Part shown: one piece after another, positions 5,512 through 35,355 of the stretch
How the letters are laid out: each line of letters opens with the position of its first letter
How positions within the stretch are numbered: the stretch's first letter is position 1
Assembly: GCA_025060015.1 (NCBI GenBank)
Contig: JANXDB010000009.1
Span: 1-64,000, forward strand
Origin: Caldimicrobium sp.
GTDB lineage: Bacteria; Desulfobacterota; Thermodesulfobacteria; Thermodesulfobacteriales; Thermodesulfobacteriaceae
Direction: 5' to 3'
Length of the DNA stretch: 64,000 nucleotides
Position numbers and translations under genes: made by a program
Notes under the pieces: generated by a model
What the model saw: the letters and a program-made list of their open reading frames with translations, nothing else
The model's database searches: none
What the model was told of the DNA's origin: nothing

Positions 5512-6209
5512 TGATCAGAATTGTCTCAATTTTTCTATCGTGCTTGATACTTCACAGCACCTCAGCTAAGGCAGAATTTAAATTGTATTACGAAATATTC
5601 TACGGCCCTGTGAAATTGGGAGAAAGTCAAATTTCAATTGATAACAAAAAATATGTAGCTGAGGCCAGAACAACGGGTATTGGAAACACTATTTATCCCT
5701 ATTTTGCAAAATGGACCACGGAGATCAATGCCCATGGATATCCAATTAAAAGTCACATCTTTTCAAAAGATCGCTTTAAAGAGAGAGAAAAAATCATTGC
5801 CTTTGATCCTCAACAAAAAACAGTGCATCTACAGAAACTCCTGCCAAAGAGAAAAACGAAAACCATTCTTCTTCCCTTTCCACTGTATGACGAGCTTACT
5901 GCCTTTGTATCCTCTTGGTACTTGAATTTCAACAACACCTCAGTTCACGAATTACCACTATATATAGATGAAGAAAGACACATGGTTAAAATAAATTACA
6001 AAAGGAGTCTCTCCTGCACCTTTCATAACAAAACCTATTCATGCTTGGAAATACAGGCCCTCTTGCCTGATAAAAGTGAACTTTTAAGACGATCAAAAGA
6101 GGTTTTAATCCTCCTGTGGAAAGAGGAGAGTATTCCTTTGGAAATTAAAGGAGTAATCCCAATCTTTGGTAGTTTGACTGCCAGATTGAAAACCTATTCC
6201 AGGAATTAA
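5511..6209 (+). CDS. DUF3108-like exported protein
   Basis: Signal peptide, FKLYYEIFYGPVKLGESQISI and overall DUF3108-like pattern. Confidence 0.6.
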   Translation: MIRIVSIFLSCLILHSTSAKAEFKLYYEIFYGPVKLGESQISIDNKKYVAEARTTGIGNTIYPYFAKWTTEINAHGYPIKSHIFSKDRFKEREKIIAFDPQQKTVHLQKLLPKRKTKTILLPFPLYDELTAFVSSWYLNFNNTSVHELPLYIDEERHMVKINYKRSLSCTFHNKTYSCLEIQALLPDKSELLRRSKEVLILLWKEESIPLEIKGVIPIFGSLTARLKTYSRN

Positions 6210-7111
6210 AAGCGAATCTTTAAGAAGTCCTCCATCAGTTTTCTGACCTTTACAAAGGCCTCGTGACTGCCTCCTCTATCTGGATGTAATTCCAAAATCT
6301 TGGCCCTAAAGATCTTTAAAACCTCCCTTTTTGACAGAGAGAGTAACTTGTCTACGGATATATTTAAATTCCGAGATACTTCCAGGTAAAGACTCTCTTC
6401 GAAGACATGGTAACTCCTTGGCACCCTGGTCCTAGGTATGGCATCAAAATAGAACCACACATAGCGAGAAAGATAGGAAGAGAGAACTTTATCGCTAGAT
6501 AGATCCATAAAATACTGAGGATCTTCAGCGATCTTACAGAGACCTTCCATAAAGAATGTATCCCTCTCTTCAGGACTTGAAGCTTTCCCCAAAGAAAAGA
6601 TAGATAGAAGGTAACGAGACTTTTCCCTAAAGGTAAGACGATCCTCCATGTCCCAAATCATGTTTTCTATTTCATCTCGAGACTTAAAAAGTAACCTCTC
6701 AAAAAAGGGATATTTTTGTTGTATGAGCCTTTTGGGATCACGGTGATCTAGTTTAATTGCTATTAACCTTATTCTGTCAAACCAATGTATGTCATCAAGA
6801 TTGAAGTCTCTTCTGTTAGTGTTTTTTGGTTGTCTTTTAGATAGAGAGAATCTCACCCATTTCTGAGCTTCTGGATTTAAAAATCGAAGGAAAAGTTCCT
6901 CCAACTGGAATTGATCAGTTTTTTTGCCAATCTTTGCCAATTCATCTTCTAAATCAATAGAAAAGGCAACTTCACTGTAATAGGTGATAAAATTAGCTGG
7001 ATTTGAGCCTAAATCAAAAAGGACTCTACTTTTATAGAATGGCGCCTCATAATAGGACTCATTGATTCTATAGACGTAACCAATGGGTGTAATTTTACGA
7101 CTAATATACAT
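6206..7111 (-). CDS. Protein with C-terminal J (DnaJ)-like domain
   Basis: C-terminal KREVLKIFRAKILELHPDRGGSHEAFVKVRKLMEDF contains the HPD motif. Confidence 0.65.
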   Translation of the reverse strand: MYISRKITPIGYVYRINESYYEAPFYKSRVLFDLGSNPANFITYYSEVAFSIDLEDELAKIGKKTDQFQLEELFLRFLNPEAQKWVRFSLSKRQPKNTNRRDFNLDDIHWFDRIRLIAIKLDHRDPKRLIQQKYPFFERLLFKSRDEIENMIWDMEDRLTFREKSRYLLSIFSLGKASSPEERDTFFMEGLCKIAEDPQYFMDLSSDKVLSSYLSRYVWFYFDAIPRTRVPRSYHVFEESLYLEVSRNLNISVDKLLSLSKREVLKIFRAKILELHPDRGGSHEAFVKVRKLMEDFLKIRF

Positions 7112-7115
7112 AAGG

Positions 7116-7129
7116 GGGGCAGGAGCCCC
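7116..7129 (-). terminator. Short GC hairpin after ferredoxin gene
   Basis: GGGGC-AGGA-GCCCC; only 4 nt before the ATG of the next ORF. Confidence 0.3.
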
Positions 7130-7138
7130 ACCTCTCCC

Positions 7139-7327
7139 CTAAATTTCTCTCACTTCAATAGACCCGGTAGGGCAAACCTCTACACAGGTCATACATCCAA
7201 GACAATCTTCAGGTCTTGATATGACAGGCTTATCATCTGAACCTTTGTCATAGACCTGAGCTGGACAGGACTCAATACAGGAACCACAGGCATCACAGGT
7301 GTCATAATTAACCGTGATTTCAAACAT
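7139..7327 (-). CDS. 2[4Fe-4S] ferredoxin
   Basis: CDACGSCIESCP...CLGCMTCVEVCP. Confidence 0.9.
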   Translation of the reverse strand: MFEITVNYDTCDACGSCIESCPAQVYDKGSDDKPVISRPEDCLGCMTCVEVCPTGSIEVREI

Positions 7328-7342
7328 ATCACACCTCCTCCT

Positions 7343-8749
7343 TTATTTGTTTTTAAAATCAACTGCTTGCTTCAAAAAATTCTCAGCCCAGTATTTTACA
7401 CTAAAAGTATGAATATGGGTATACCCTGCAAAAACATTCTTATAAATAATTCCATCCACTCCGGCTTTAAAGCCATAGCCCTTTTCAAGTTGAAGGACAA
7501 AACTCATCTTATGACCATCTCTAACCTCTGATGGATAAGAATAGTGAAATTCATGGCCTTTAATTATGGTGTCCTTTTCATGATAAGGATTTGGGGTTTG
7601 AACCTTTGCAATAACATAGCCATGACCACGGGGGCTTTGATCAACTTTGAACTTAATCGGTAAAACTCCAGTCATGGGATATCTTTTTCCATGCCATTCT
7701 ATTTCTTCACCCAAATAAATTAGACCTCCGCATTCGGCATAGATTGGCATCCCATTCTCAGCTGCAGTTTTCACATCACCTCTCAGGCTCTTATTCTCTG
7801 CCAGGATCTCAGCCTGAACCTCAGGGAAACCTCCACCGATGTAAAGGGCTGATACAGAAGGTAAAGCCCGCTCCTTCAATGAGTCTATAAAGATTAAGTT
7901 TGCTCCTAATTGAGATAGAGCCTCCAAATTTTCAGGATAGTAAAATTGAAAAGCAGGATCATAAAAGACGCCAACATCGACATCATATCTTGGCTCTGTT
8001 TTGTAATGGAAAATAGGAATGGATAGTTGGGGAACGTTTTTAGCAATATCTATAACAGCATCTAGATTTATGTTCTCCCTCAACTTCTCCACTAACTCGC
8101 TGATAAAATCAAGACCTCTCTCCCAGGAAGTTATTAGCCCTAAGTGCCTCTCTTTTACCGTTTCTCTTAACCTGGGGATTACACCCAAAACAGGAACATC
8201 AGTATACTTCTCTATTGCAGACCTTATGAGGTTTTCATGTCTGCTTCTTGCTATATGGTTTAAAATGACTCCCTTAATGAGGACCTCCAAATCAAAATCA
8301 ACAAAACCTTTTACCAAGGCAGCCATACTGCGGGTGGCTTTTGTGCAATCCACAACAAGTATGACAGGGGTCCTTAAAAGTTTTGCAAGACTTGCAGTGC
8401 TGCAACTTCCCTCTACATCCACACCATCAAAAAGCCCTCTATTACCCTCAATAATAGCTATATCTGAATTGAGAGACCCCCTGTACAGGGAATAAAGATT
8501 GTGATCCTCGTCAAAAAGAAATAGATCTAGGTTGCGACATGGCATTGTGGCAACCTTTGAAAGCCAACCAGCATCTATGTAATCCGGACCCTTCTTAAAG
8601 GGAGAAACCCTAAGGCCTCTGTCGTGAAGTAACTTGATAAGACCTAAAGTAAAAATCGTTTTTCCAGAGGCTCCTCGTGGAGCAGATATCATTAGACGCG
8701 GAACATTGTAATGCACAATCATATCTGTTACTTTAAAACAGCTTTTCAA
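7343..8749 (-). CDS. dsrN: CbiA/CobB-family amidase, probable DsrN (siroheme amidase)
   Basis: Cobyrinate a,c-diamide synthase-like (APRGASGKTIFTLGLI, GNRGLFDGVD, YAECGGLIYLG, GHEFHYS); lies directly after dsrMKJOP, the context of DsrN. Confidence 0.75.
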   Translation of the reverse strand: MKSCFKVTDMIVHYNVPRLMISAPRGASGKTIFTLGLIKLLHDRGLRVSPFKKGPDYIDAGWLSKVATMPCRNLDLFLFDEDHNLYSLYRGSLNSDIAIIEGNRGLFDGVDVEGSCSTASLAKLLRTPVILVVDCTKATRSMAALVKGFVDFDLEVLIKGVILNHIARSRHENLIRSAIEKYTDVPVLGVIPRLRETVKERHLGLITSWERGLDFISELVEKLRENINLDAVIDIAKNVPQLSIPIFHYKTEPRYDVDVGVFYDPAFQFYYPENLEALSQLGANLIFIDSLKERALPSVSALYIGGGFPEVQAEILAENKSLRGDVKTAAENGMPIYAECGGLIYLGEEIEWHGKRYPMTGVLPIKFKVDQSPRGHGYVIAKVQTPNPYHEKDTIIKGHEFHYSYPSEVRDGHKMSFVLQLEKGYGFKAGVDGIIYKNVFAGYTHIHTFSVKYWAENFLKQAVDFKNK

Positions 8750-31683: not shown

Positions 31684-31712
31684 TTGACAAAGAAAACACC
31701 TATAGTTAAAAT
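31684..31712 (+). promoter_or_regulatory. Sigma-70-type promoter of fabG-rtcA-RNA ligase operon
   Basis: TTGACA (31684-31689), 17-nt spacer, TAAAAT (31707-31712). Confidence 0.6.
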
Positions 31713-31734
31713 TAACAAAAACAAGGAGGGAGAG

Positions 31735-32478
31735 ATGTTAGAAGGTAAGCTTGCTTTGGTAACTGGAGCCTCAAGGGGTATAGGTAGAGCCATTGCCATA
31801 GAGCTTGCCAAAGCTGGAGCTGAAGTGATTATAAACTATCTTGGTTCAGAGAAAAAGGCCATAGAAGTTAAAGACCAAATAACCTCTTTGGGAAAAAAAG
31901 CACATCTTCTACGCTTTGATGTCTCAAACTCTGAAGATGTTAAAAAAGCCATAAAGAACATAGAGGAAAATATAGGTCAAATTCACATCCTAGTGAACAA
32001 TGCCGGTATCACTAGAGATAATCTCTTTGTTCGCATGAAGGAAGAAGACTGGGAGGCAGTGCTTCGCACCAATCTCTTTTCAGCCTTCTATGTGACTCAA
32101 GCCGTTTTGCCCATGATGTTAAAGGTCCGTTGGGGACGAATTATCAATATCTCCTCTGTAGTGGCTTTTACCGGCAATCCAGGACAGGTAAACTACGCCT
32201 CAGCCAAGGCTGGACTTATAGGCTTCACGAAGGCTCTCTCGTTAGAGGTTGCTGGTAGAAACATAACCGTCAATGCCATTGCACCGGGATACATAGAGAC
32301 AGACATGACTGAAAAGCTTCCAGAAAAAGTAAAGGAAGCCTTTTTACAGGAGATTCCCCTAAAAAGAGCAGGCTTACCAGAGGAGGTAGCTCATTTATCC
32401 GTATTTTTGGCAAGTGATTTAGCCTCTTATATAACAGGCACGGTATTTCACATAAACGGAGGGCTCTATAGAGGATAG
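31735..32478 (+). CDS. fabG: 3-oxoacyl-ACP reductase
   Basis: TGASRGIGRAIA, NNAGITRDN, YASAKAG, NAIAPGYIETDM; start refined to ATG with GGAGGGAG SD. Confidence 0.9.
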   Translation: MLEGKLALVTGASRGIGRAIAIELAKAGAEVIINYLGSEKKAIEVKDQITSLGKKAHLLRFDVSNSEDVKKAIKNIEENIGQIHILVNNAGITRDNLFVRMKEEDWEAVLRTNLFSAFYVTQAVLPMMLKVRWGRIINISSVVAFTGNPGQVNYASAKAGLIGFTKALSLEVAGRNITVNAIAPGYIETDMTEKLPEKVKEAFLQEIPLKRAGLPEEVAHLSVFLASDLASYITGTVFHINGGLYRG

Positions 32479-32482
32479 AGAG

Positions 32483-33532
32483 GTGTTAACAATTGATGGG
32501 TCCTTCGGAGAAGGAGGCGGCCAACTACTTCGCACGGCTCTCTCCCTGTCAATAATTTTGAAAAAACCCTTTCATATCATAAACATAAGAGCAGGCAGAC
32601 CTAAACCTGGCTTACAACCACAACATCTAACCTGCGTTAAAGCCTGTCAAAGGATCTCCAACGCTATAACTAAAGGAGATGAAATAAATTCAAAGGAACT
32701 AACCTTTATCCCCACGGGCGATCCAGAAAGCGATCTCTATCACTTTGATATCGGCACGGCTGGCTCTACCTCCCTTCTCTTTCAAACTCTTCTCTACCCT
32801 CTTGCTCTCTCTCAGGGGGGAACCCTAATATTAGAGGGAGGAACACATGTTCCCCACAGTCCAACCTACCACTATTTGGAGAGAGTTTTTCTCCCTGTGA
32901 TCCAGTCCTTTGGCTTTAAGGCATCCCTTGAACTAAAAAAGGCTGGCTTTTACCCAAAGGGAGGAGGTAAAATCAAGGCCCAGATCTTTCCTGTTTCCTC
33001 TTTCAGCATACCAGATATTTCTCCAGGCTTTAAACCAGAGAAAATTGAGATCTTAAGCACCATCAGTGAGGATTTACCAAGGCATATCATGGAGAGACAG
33101 GCAAAATCCGCCGTTGATATCCTTACTGATTATCAGCTTCAGGGTGATGTCCAAATGGAAAAGATCAATAGCAACTCTCCCGGAACCATGCTTCTGATAG
33201 TATCGAAAGATAAGATAAAAAGAGCAGGCTTTTCAAGTCTTGGCAAACGAGGTCTTCCCGCTGAAGAGGTAGCAAAAAGTGCTACATATCGATTTTTAGA
33301 ATTCCTGGAGAGAGACGCCCAGTTTGAAGAATACCTTGGGGACCAGTTATTACTTCCAGTAAGCCTCTCCCTAATAAAAACAAAAGAGAAATCCTTTCAA
33401 TATACCATCTCCAAGATTACTAAACACATTCTAACTCAAGCTTGGCTGATACCTCAATTTCTGGAAGATATTAAAATCTCTATCATAGAGGTTGAAAAAA
33501 CCAAGGGGAGGATAATCGTTGAGAGAAGATAG
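32483..33532 (+). CDS. rtcA: RNA 3'-terminal phosphate cyclase
   Basis: IDGSFGEGGGQLLRTALSLS, RPKPGLQPQH, GTAGSTSLLFQTLLYPL, GGTHVPHSPTYHYLE. Confidence 0.93.
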   Translation: MLTIDGSFGEGGGQLLRTALSLSIILKKPFHIINIRAGRPKPGLQPQHLTCVKACQRISNAITKGDEINSKELTFIPTGDPESDLYHFDIGTAGSTSLLFQTLLYPLALSQGGTLILEGGTHVPHSPTYHYLERVFLPVIQSFGFKASLELKKAGFYPKGGGKIKAQIFPVSSFSIPDISPGFKPEKIEILSTISEDLPRHIMERQAKSAVDILTDYQLQGDVQMEKINSNSPGTMLLIVSKDKIKRAGFSSLGKRGLPAEEVAKSATYRFLEFLERDAQFEEYLGDQLLLPVSLSLIKTKEKSFQYTISKITKHILTQAWLIPQFLEDIKISIIEVEKTKGRIIVERR

Positions 33533-34670
33533 AGAAATTAAGGAACTGTTGAGACATTTCTGGGAGAGCAATACCTTCCTTGAAGAATACCCCTTTGAGG
33601 AGTGGGAGAAGGCCTATGATAAGGGTAAATTGTTATTCTTCACCTGGAAGGATCACCATTTTTTCAGACTAAACAAGGAGTTTAAAAGTTTTCCAGTTGG
33701 GACCTTCTTTAATGAAAACCTATTGATTAGGGGATACCCTTCTATACCGAGAATTTATCTCCTTAAAACAGGCTTAAGGCGATATCTTCAATATCCTTTC
33801 TATGCCGAGGAAAAAATAGAGGGATACAATGTTAGACTGGTAAAGGTTAAGAAGGACATATTAGCCTTCACCAGAAGGGGTTATGTATGCCCCTTTGCTA
33901 CAGACAGATGGGAAGATTTGCTTCCCAAGGCCTCTGATTTTCTTGACCAATGTCCCACCTACTACATCTGTTGTGAGGTTGCAGGGCCTGAAAATCCCTT
34001 TGTTAGTGAATGGCCACCCCAGGTGAGAGAGGACGTAAGATTCTTCGTTTTTGATTTTGCTAAAATAGGCACAGGTGATTTTCTATCAGCACCTGATAAA
34101 CTAAAGCTTTTGAAAAGATATGATTTCACGCACCCAGAAATTCACGGTCCTCTTGATCCCGAGAATGATTATGAGCCCATAAGGAAAATCATTAAGAGAT
34201 ACCATGAAGAAGGAAGAGAAGGGTTGGTCTTCAAACCGGAATCCCTGGGCACAAGGGTTAAATATGTGACGCCCTATTCAAATCTCAACGATTTAAAAGT
34301 GGTCTTTCCTTATTTAGGGGAAGTAGATCCAAATTTCATAAGTCTGAGACTTATCAGGTTAGCCTTAAATCTAATTGAATTTGAAGAATACAAGGAAGAG
34401 ATTTACAAAACCTTAGGAGGTTATCTCTTTGAAGATGCCCTCTTGATGCTTAAAAGAGGAAAGATTTTTGAAGAGATCTTTAAGGTGCGTTTTAGGAAAG
34501 AGGAAAACTTTTACTCCCTCCTTGCCCATTTCAAACTAGCCAGAGTAAACATAGAGATAATGGGGAAGGATTGGAAGGATGGCTATCTGATGGTAAAATT
34601 CAAAAAGATCTATCCAAGGGCAACCCAATTCTGGGGACACAAATTAGAGGGCTGGGGAGAAGTTGACTAA
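33519..34670 (+). CDS. ATP-dependent RNA ligase, Rnl3/Pab1020-type
   Basis: EEKIEGYNVRLVKV (motif I KxxG), TRRGYVCPFATDR, EGLVFKPES (motif IV), RVKYVTP (motif V); TTG start after GGGGAGGA. Confidence 0.88.
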   Translation: MREDREIKELLRHFWESNTFLEEYPFEEWEKAYDKGKLLFFTWKDHHFFRLNKEFKSFPVGTFFNENLLIRGYPSIPRIYLLKTGLRRYLQYPFYAEEKIEGYNVRLVKVKKDILAFTRRGYVCPFATDRWEDLLPKASDFLDQCPTYYICCEVAGPENPFVSEWPPQVREDVRFFVFDFAKIGTGDFLSAPDKLKLLKRYDFTHPEIHGPLDPENDYEPIRKIIKRYHEEGREGLVFKPESLGTRVKYVTPYSNLNDLKVVFPYLGEVDPNFISLRLIRLALNLIEFEEYKEEIYKTLGGYLFEDALLMLKRGKIFEEIFKVRFRKEENFYSLLAHFKLARVNIEIMGKDWKDGYLMVKFKKIYPRATQFWGHKLEGWGEVD

Positions 34671-35355
34671 ATATTATCCCATTTTTCTCAATCTTACAGA
34701 CAGACTCTGTGTGGTAATAGGTGGTGGTTCTGTGGCAGAGAGGAAGGTTCTCTCCCTGCTTGAAAGTGGAGCCAGAGTGAAACTCATATCCCCAGAGATA
34801 ACTGTCAAACTGAGAGAATTAAAAGAGAAAGGAGCCCTTCACTGGGAGAAGAGACTCTATCAAAGGGGAGACCTAACTGGTGCTTTTTTGGTTATTGCTG
34901 CCACAAACGATCCTAAAGTTCAAGAGGCAATCTTTCAGGAAGCTGAAGAGAGATCCATACCCTGCAATGTGGTTGATAAACCTGACCTTTGCTCCTTTAT
35001 CGTTCCCTCAACCATTAAACGAGGAGGATTTGTCTTGGCCATATCCACAGGAGGTGCAAGTCCTGCTTTGGCAAGAAGAATTAGAGAGATACTGGAAAAG
35101 GAATTTTCACCGGATTTCGAGCTATATGTAAGTTTAATGGGTGCAATAAGAGGAGCTATTCTTAAACAACCACTATCCCCACAGGAAAGAGAAAATAAGC
35201 TACAGAGATTAGCCCTAGCCCCTCTCTGGCAATACATAAAAAATGGAGATTGGTCCTTGATAAGAATAATCCTTGAAAAGGAAGGTCTCAAGGATTTGCT
35301 ATCTGAGATATCTTCTCTCGGTAAAGTTTCCAGAGATACAGAAAGGCCGGACTGA
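34663..35355 (+). CDS. Precorrin-2 dehydrogenase / siroheme synthase N-terminal-type protein
   Basis: YPIFLNLTDRLCVVIGGGSVAERKVLSLLESGARVKLISP, AATNDPKVQ, NVVDKPDLCSFIVPS. Confidence 0.9.
   Translation: MTKYYPIFLNLTDRLCVVIGGGSVAERKVLSLLESGARVKLISPEITVKLRELKEKGALHWEKRLYQRGDLTGAFLVIAATNDPKVQEAIFQEAEERSIPCNVVDKPDLCSFIVPSTIKRGGFVLAISTGGASPALARRIREILEKEFSPDFELYVSLMGAIRGAILKQPLSPQERENKLQRLALAPLWQYIKNGDWSLIRIILEKEGLKDLLSEISSLGKVSRDTERPD

Follow-up and report, generated by a model that had tools for sequence, protein, structure and literature searches.

In a 64,000-nucleotide stretch of a Caldimicrobium sp. assembly (GCA_025060015.1, contig JANXDB010000009.1; hereafter the window), the gene for an RNA 3'-terminal phosphate cyclase (rtcA) is followed directly by the gene for an Rnl3-type ATP-dependent RNA ligase (rnl3). 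The pairing looks real, and it looks conserved within a single group of thermophilic sulfur bacteria. The best explanation, in which we place about even confidence, is that RtcA and Rnl3 are both genuine, that they are encoded by co-transcribed, probably translationally coupled genes that came together once, and that the two enzymes would process RNA ends with complementary substrates. The individual enzymes, the genomic link between Rnl3 and the protein-only RNase P known as HARP, and the rtcBA operon are already known; the novelty lies in how the genes of these known enzymes are arranged. Coordinates for the locus are given in Table 1.

Table 1. Features of the rtcA-rnl3 locus, in window coordinates.
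Feature	Position	Strand	Details	Family models
fabG, 3-oxoacyl-ACP reductase	31684..32478	+	heads the gene run	TIGR01830 (348.5 bits)
rtcA, RNA 3'-terminal phosphate cyclase	32483..33532	+	349 aa, GTG start	TIGR03399, PF01137, PF05189
RtcA His315 codon	33425..33427	+	aligns with the nucleophile histidine of E. coli RtcA (HLLTN motif)	
Shine-Dalgarno-like AAGGGGAGG of rnl3	33503..33511	+	inside the rtcA 3' end, ~8 nt upstream of the TTG start	
rtcA/rnl3 overlap	33519..33532	+	exactly 14 bp	
rnl3, ATP-dependent RNA ligase, Pab1020/MthRnl (Rnl3) family	33519..34670	+	383 aa, TTG start	TIGR01209, PF18330, PF09414
Rnl3 Lys99 codon	33813..33815	+	nucleotidyl-transferase motif I (EEK-I-E-G-YN)	
cysG N-terminal-type (precorrin-2 dehydrogenase)	34663..35355	+	8-bp overlap with rnl3	TIGR01470

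Both genes had been named in an earlier sequence-only reading of the window, made without database searches, and both names hold against curated family models; the ligase and cyclase motifs are likewise intact. RtcA scores 320.6 bits against TIGR03399 (cut-off 250.05), also matches PF01137, carries the RTC insert domain PF05189 (50.5 bits), and matches the solved structures 4o89 and 1qmh over most of its length. Its catalytic histidine (HxxTN/Q) is a histidine in all 38 aligned RtcA sequences. The protein is a genuine family member and, judging from its sequence, a predicted cyclase of 3'-phosphates to 2',3'-cyclic phosphates. RtcA enzymes cyclise both 3'- and 2'-phosphates and can adenylylate RNA 5'-phosphate ends, and E. 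coli RtcA produces AppRNA in vitro (PMC8131947).

The ligase scores 293.5 bits against TIGR01209 (cut-off 136.9), with further matches to PF09414 and to the Pab1020 C-terminal region PF18330 (99.4 bits). Its nearest solved relatives, matched over most of its length, are 3qwu (an entry named 'DNA ligase', E=6e-69) and Pab1020 2vug, with 8uce also matching. The closest of these, 3qwu, is probably the Aquifex Rnl3, and in the Aquificota most rnl3 genes are arranged tail to tail with HARP. Residues K99 (KxxG), E234-G235 (EG) and K248 (the KYVTP lysine) are invariant in an alignment of 11 Rnl3 sequences (A1), and motif I and EGxVxK are jointly present in 90 of 95 matching frames. The window Rnl3 is a genuine, motif-intact family member and a predicted ligase. 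It has its family, motifs and C-terminal domain in common with the archaeal enzymes Pab1020, MthRnl and TkoRnl but is bacterial, whereas the in vivo targets of the archaeal enzymes are C/D box sRNAs. No C/D box sRNAs are known from bacteria, and no in vivo substrate of any bacterial Rnl3 was found in the literature searched. In Thermococcus kodakarensis, knockout of Rnl3 causes loss of circular C/D box sRNAs and leaves growth normal (PMC9014305).

The 14-bp overlap and the Shine-Dalgarno-TTG arrangement described in the sequence-only reading are exact, and an identical overlap, a TTG start and a purine-rich Shine-Dalgarno sequence recur in most Caldimicrobium and Thermodesulfobacterium loci. 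In the remaining loci of the Rnl3 clade defined below, rnl3 starts 23, 20, 8 or 7 bp inside rtcA, or slightly past its stop. Within the window the pair sits in a tight co-directional run, fabG-rtcA-rnl3-cysG(N-term), with a gap of 4 bp between fabG and rtcA. Which of three common families lies upstream of rtcA depends on lineage: fabG (restricted to Caldimicrobium and a small number of its near relatives), a creatininase-like gene or an ABC transporter ATPase, the latter two identified by sequence alone. On the downstream side of rnl3, at least two gene families occur: cysG, present only in Caldimicrobium and Thermodesulfobacterium and replaced by other genes in Thermodesulfatator and Thermosulfurimonas, and, elsewhere, a permease-like gene in convergent orientation or other genes. 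The rtcA-rnl3 pair is the constant element while neighbours on both sides change. Since the pair is kept despite swapped flanks, and the TTG/Shine-Dalgarno overlap recurs, gene order favours, without proving, selection for joint expression. From this organisation we infer that rtcA and rnl3 are co-transcribed and probably translationally coupled. The earlier suggestion of fixed stoichiometry goes further than the overlap allows, as an overlap can suggest coupling and does not show fixed stoichiometry. Because fabG and cysG are functionally unrelated to the pair, the operon may represent a mixed set of housekeeping genes.

Gene order was scanned for RtcA and HARP in the 80 best named loci from GTDB genomes and in the genomes of a phylum survey (297 genomes, with Rnl3 counted above the curated cut-off). 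The Rnl3 proteins of the window's order form one clade (SH-aLRT 100), and the nearest named relatives of the window genome (1.6 Mb, 99% complete) are Caldimicrobium. Among the 32 clade members besides G269, the earliest branch, rtcA lies directly upstream of rnl3 and on the same strand in 28 of 30 assessable loci. The adjacency is absent in two members (L061 and L062), other sequence lies between rtcA and rnl3 in G100 and G248, and the pair is retained down to approximately 50% Rnl3 identity. Two other distributions were considered and rejected: an adjacency unique to the window genome, by the 28 clade loci, and an adjacency common to archaea, in which rtcA lay within 1.5 kb of rnl3 in none of 30 loci. 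Nor was rtcA beside rnl3 in any of the 38 HARP-adjacent named loci outside the window's order. Among the loci scanned, direct adjacency is therefore found in a single clade, and the unit is specific to Thermodesulfobacteriaceae, Thermodesulfatator and Thermosulfurimonas. In G269, HARP lies tail to tail beside rnl3, and no other clade locus has HARP near rnl3; G269 is a long branch, and its exact placement is for that reason less secure than the existence of the clade. The most economical interpretation is that the adjacency arose once, when rnl3 moved from its HARP neighbour to a position behind rtcA.

A looser, second linkage of the two genes is seen in the Aquificaceae. In five loci (L076, L079, L082, L089 and L090) rtcA precedes rnl3 by 3-6 kb in the same orientation, with the gene order rtcA-gyrA-purS-purQ-rnl3 followed by convergent HARP; for L079 and L090, only the end of rtcA lies within the stretch examined. 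The gyrA frames of L076, L082 and L090 span 1176-1628 aa and contain insert sequence resembling inteins. Separately, contig L058, assigned to a Heimdallarchaeota MAG, is probably mis-binned, its Rnl3 falling within the Thermodesulfatator group.

The usual neighbour of rnl3, and the main genomic partner of Rnl3, is HARP. This genomic link was published by Seshadri and Gopalan 2025 (PMC12153264), and its co-occurrence pattern was repeated in our independent genome draw: Rnl3 and full-length HARP (with a two-piece match in G056) were each found in 15 of the 297 genomes, and the 15 genomes are identical. As these represent only about four separate lineages, the independent events are few. Of 16 genomes from which named Rnl3 loci were drawn, 14 also have full-length HARP, the two exceptions being small MAGs. 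Outside the window's order, HARP is beside rnl3 in 38 of 51 named loci (among the best 80 named loci), always tail to tail on opposite strands and often overlapping by ~30 bp. The lineages concerned are Aquificota, Nitrospirota, Brocadia, Gammaproteobacteria, deltaproteobacterial MAGs and Thermococcus, and the first four of these contradict the earlier view that Rnl3 is mainly archaeal. The window genome likewise has HARP (contig C45 of G000; PF08745, 192 bits) as well as a TIGR01209/PF18330 Rnl3, and the idea that it lacks HARP, and is hence an exception to the published link, was rejected. It departs from that linkage in position, since its ligase adjoins rtcA instead and HARP is on another contig; clade genomes in general still encode HARP at other loci. 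The window genome also has a normal RNase P RNA. As side observations, the convergent rnl3/HARP overlap of ~30 bp is unusually conserved across many distant lineages (L067-L114 and others), and at L037 (G056, 5584-8115) rnl3 and its convergent HARP are both frame-broken, through joint decay or sequencing error.

The sequence-only reading had seen neither rtcB nor rtcR. rtcB is indeed absent from the window and rtcR from the genome, but a complete rtcB (contig C59, with rtcA on C27) and an archease gene are present in the genome, away from the pair. RtcB and archease both occur in 15 of 15 Rnl3-positive genomes, and the idea that RtcB is missing was rejected. RtcR was found in none of these 15 genomes and was detected in an E. 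coli control. Across the 297 genomes RtcB is present in 257 and RtcA in 102, of which 13 are Rnl3-positive. A candidate RtcA fusion in G129 (a 1780-aa frame) has the appearance of an extended open frame in GC-rich sequence and was discarded. We also rejected a general pairing of rtcA with rtcB in the phylum: among the matches listed for ~65 genomes, many of them fragmented, comparison of position lists by eye placed the two genes within ~2 kb only in G021 and G223. The locus resembles the RtcBA operon of E. coli and Salmonella in that rtcA adjoins, and is probably co-transcribed with, an RNA ligase gene. It differs in that the ligase is Rnl3 (5'-P/3'-OH, ATP) rather than RtcB (5'-OH/3'-P, GTP), that RtcR is missing from the genome, and that RtcB and archease are encoded elsewhere.

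An unrelated feature emerged among the RtcB genes of the survey. Approximately 24 of ~155 frames among the matches listed have exactly one in-frame stop, which is always TGA. In all 12 loci that were fetched (L148-L159, from G007, G045, G020, G114, G009, G010, G135, G224, G279, G231, G160 and G177), the TGA falls on the catalytic metal-binding cysteine (Cys98 in P. horikoshii numbering; GVGYDIN-TGA-GV). In several of these genes a GCTC-AGGTCT-GAGC hairpin follows ~20 nt downstream, resembling the SECIS loop of E. coli fdhF; the folding energy of this region is not unusual against shuffles, and its consensus fold is without covariation. The TGA-containing genes look like candidate natural selenocysteine RtcB ligases, of which we found no description in the literature searched.

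The known chemistry of the two families constrains what the pair might do. In studied relatives, Rnl3 joins 5'-phosphate to 3'-OH ends, circularises RNA, and can convert a 3'-phosphate to its 2',3'-cyclic form; RNA ending in such a cyclic phosphate cannot be ligated by Rnl3 but is joined by RtcB (PMC5599603). The canonical product of RtcA thus blocks Rnl3 and suits RtcB, which makes a simple heal-then-seal relay between the paired enzymes chemically unlikely. The most coherent reading of the analysis would be a division of labour between two constitutive, ATP-dependent RNA-end processors. Rnl3 would join or circularise RNAs with 5'-phosphate and 3'-OH termini, for instance the products of HARP-type nucleases. 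RtcA would convert terminal 3'- or 2'-phosphates to 2',3'-cyclic phosphates that Rnl3 could not join, and would thereby commit them to the RtcB-archease system encoded elsewhere. A bolder form of this proposal, in which RtcA and Rnl3 form a complex that sorts or activates ends, with HARP and RtcB-archease completing a dual-ligase RNA maturation or circularisation pathway that yields natural circular RNA products in thermophilic bacteria, strikes us as improbable.

A serious rival to end-sorting, to which we give an appreciable if minority probability, is that the linkage is neutral. A chance rearrangement in the clade ancestor would have been kept by the common promoter and the overlap, Rnl3 would still partner HARP from another locus, and RtcA would work with RtcB. 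The 15/15 co-occurrence of HARP and Rnl3, which includes genomes where the genes are unlinked, is consistent with this, as are the unrelated fabG and cysG neighbours and the presence of RtcA in 89 of 282 Rnl3-free genomes. Archease and RtcB are reported to be a biochemically proven functional pair (PMC3973293). In the 15-genome Rnl3-positive set, their genes lie side by side in G054, G056, G134 and G269, which are also the four genomes where HARP remains next to rnl3; in every rtcA-rnl3 genome of the set, archease and rtcB are split. Since even this partnership is split in the clade, gene order there has been widely reshuffled and is a weak guide to function. Against neutrality, the pair has outlived gene replacement on both sides, down to the ~50% Rnl3 identity noted above.

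A direct relay, in which RtcA adenylylates RNA 5'-phosphates and passes AppRNA to Rnl3 for sealing to a 3'-OH, would draw on the in vitro activity of E. coli RtcA (PMC8131947) and on the co-production suggested by the overlap. We think it very unlikely: Rnl3 has complete adenylylation motifs of its own, and the Palaeococcus enzyme is reported, in work cited by PMC12153264, to be strong in adenylylation and weak in ligation, so an outside adenylylator for Rnl3 seems unnecessary. Least likely is a stress-induced repair operon equivalent to rtcBA with Rnl3 standing in for RtcB, a reading in line with the stress-linked RNA repair raised earlier from the sequence alone and one that the joining of rtcA to an RNA ligase gene might suggest, since all 15 Rnl3-positive genomes have RtcB and nothing has been replaced, RtcR is absent, Rnl3 cannot use the cyclic-phosphate product of RtcA, and the linked genes are housekeeping.

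The end-sorting proposal bears on a unit that appears undescribed in the literature searched, which did not extend to the RNA-repair survey of Burroughs and Aravind (2016). The sole literature match for Rnl3 together with rtcA was PMC12153264, which mentions neither RNA 3'-phosphate cyclase nor RtcB. The pair adds RtcA as a second genomic partner of Rnl3, beside the recently reported HARP-Rnl3 link. The pair is conserved in cultured Thermodesulfobacterium, Thermodesulfatator and Thermosulfurimonas, whose genomes also encode HARP, RtcB and archease. These organisms offer a defined setting in which to ask whether two distinct RNA-joining chemistries are maintained in bacteria and whether circular RNAs are made there on purpose.
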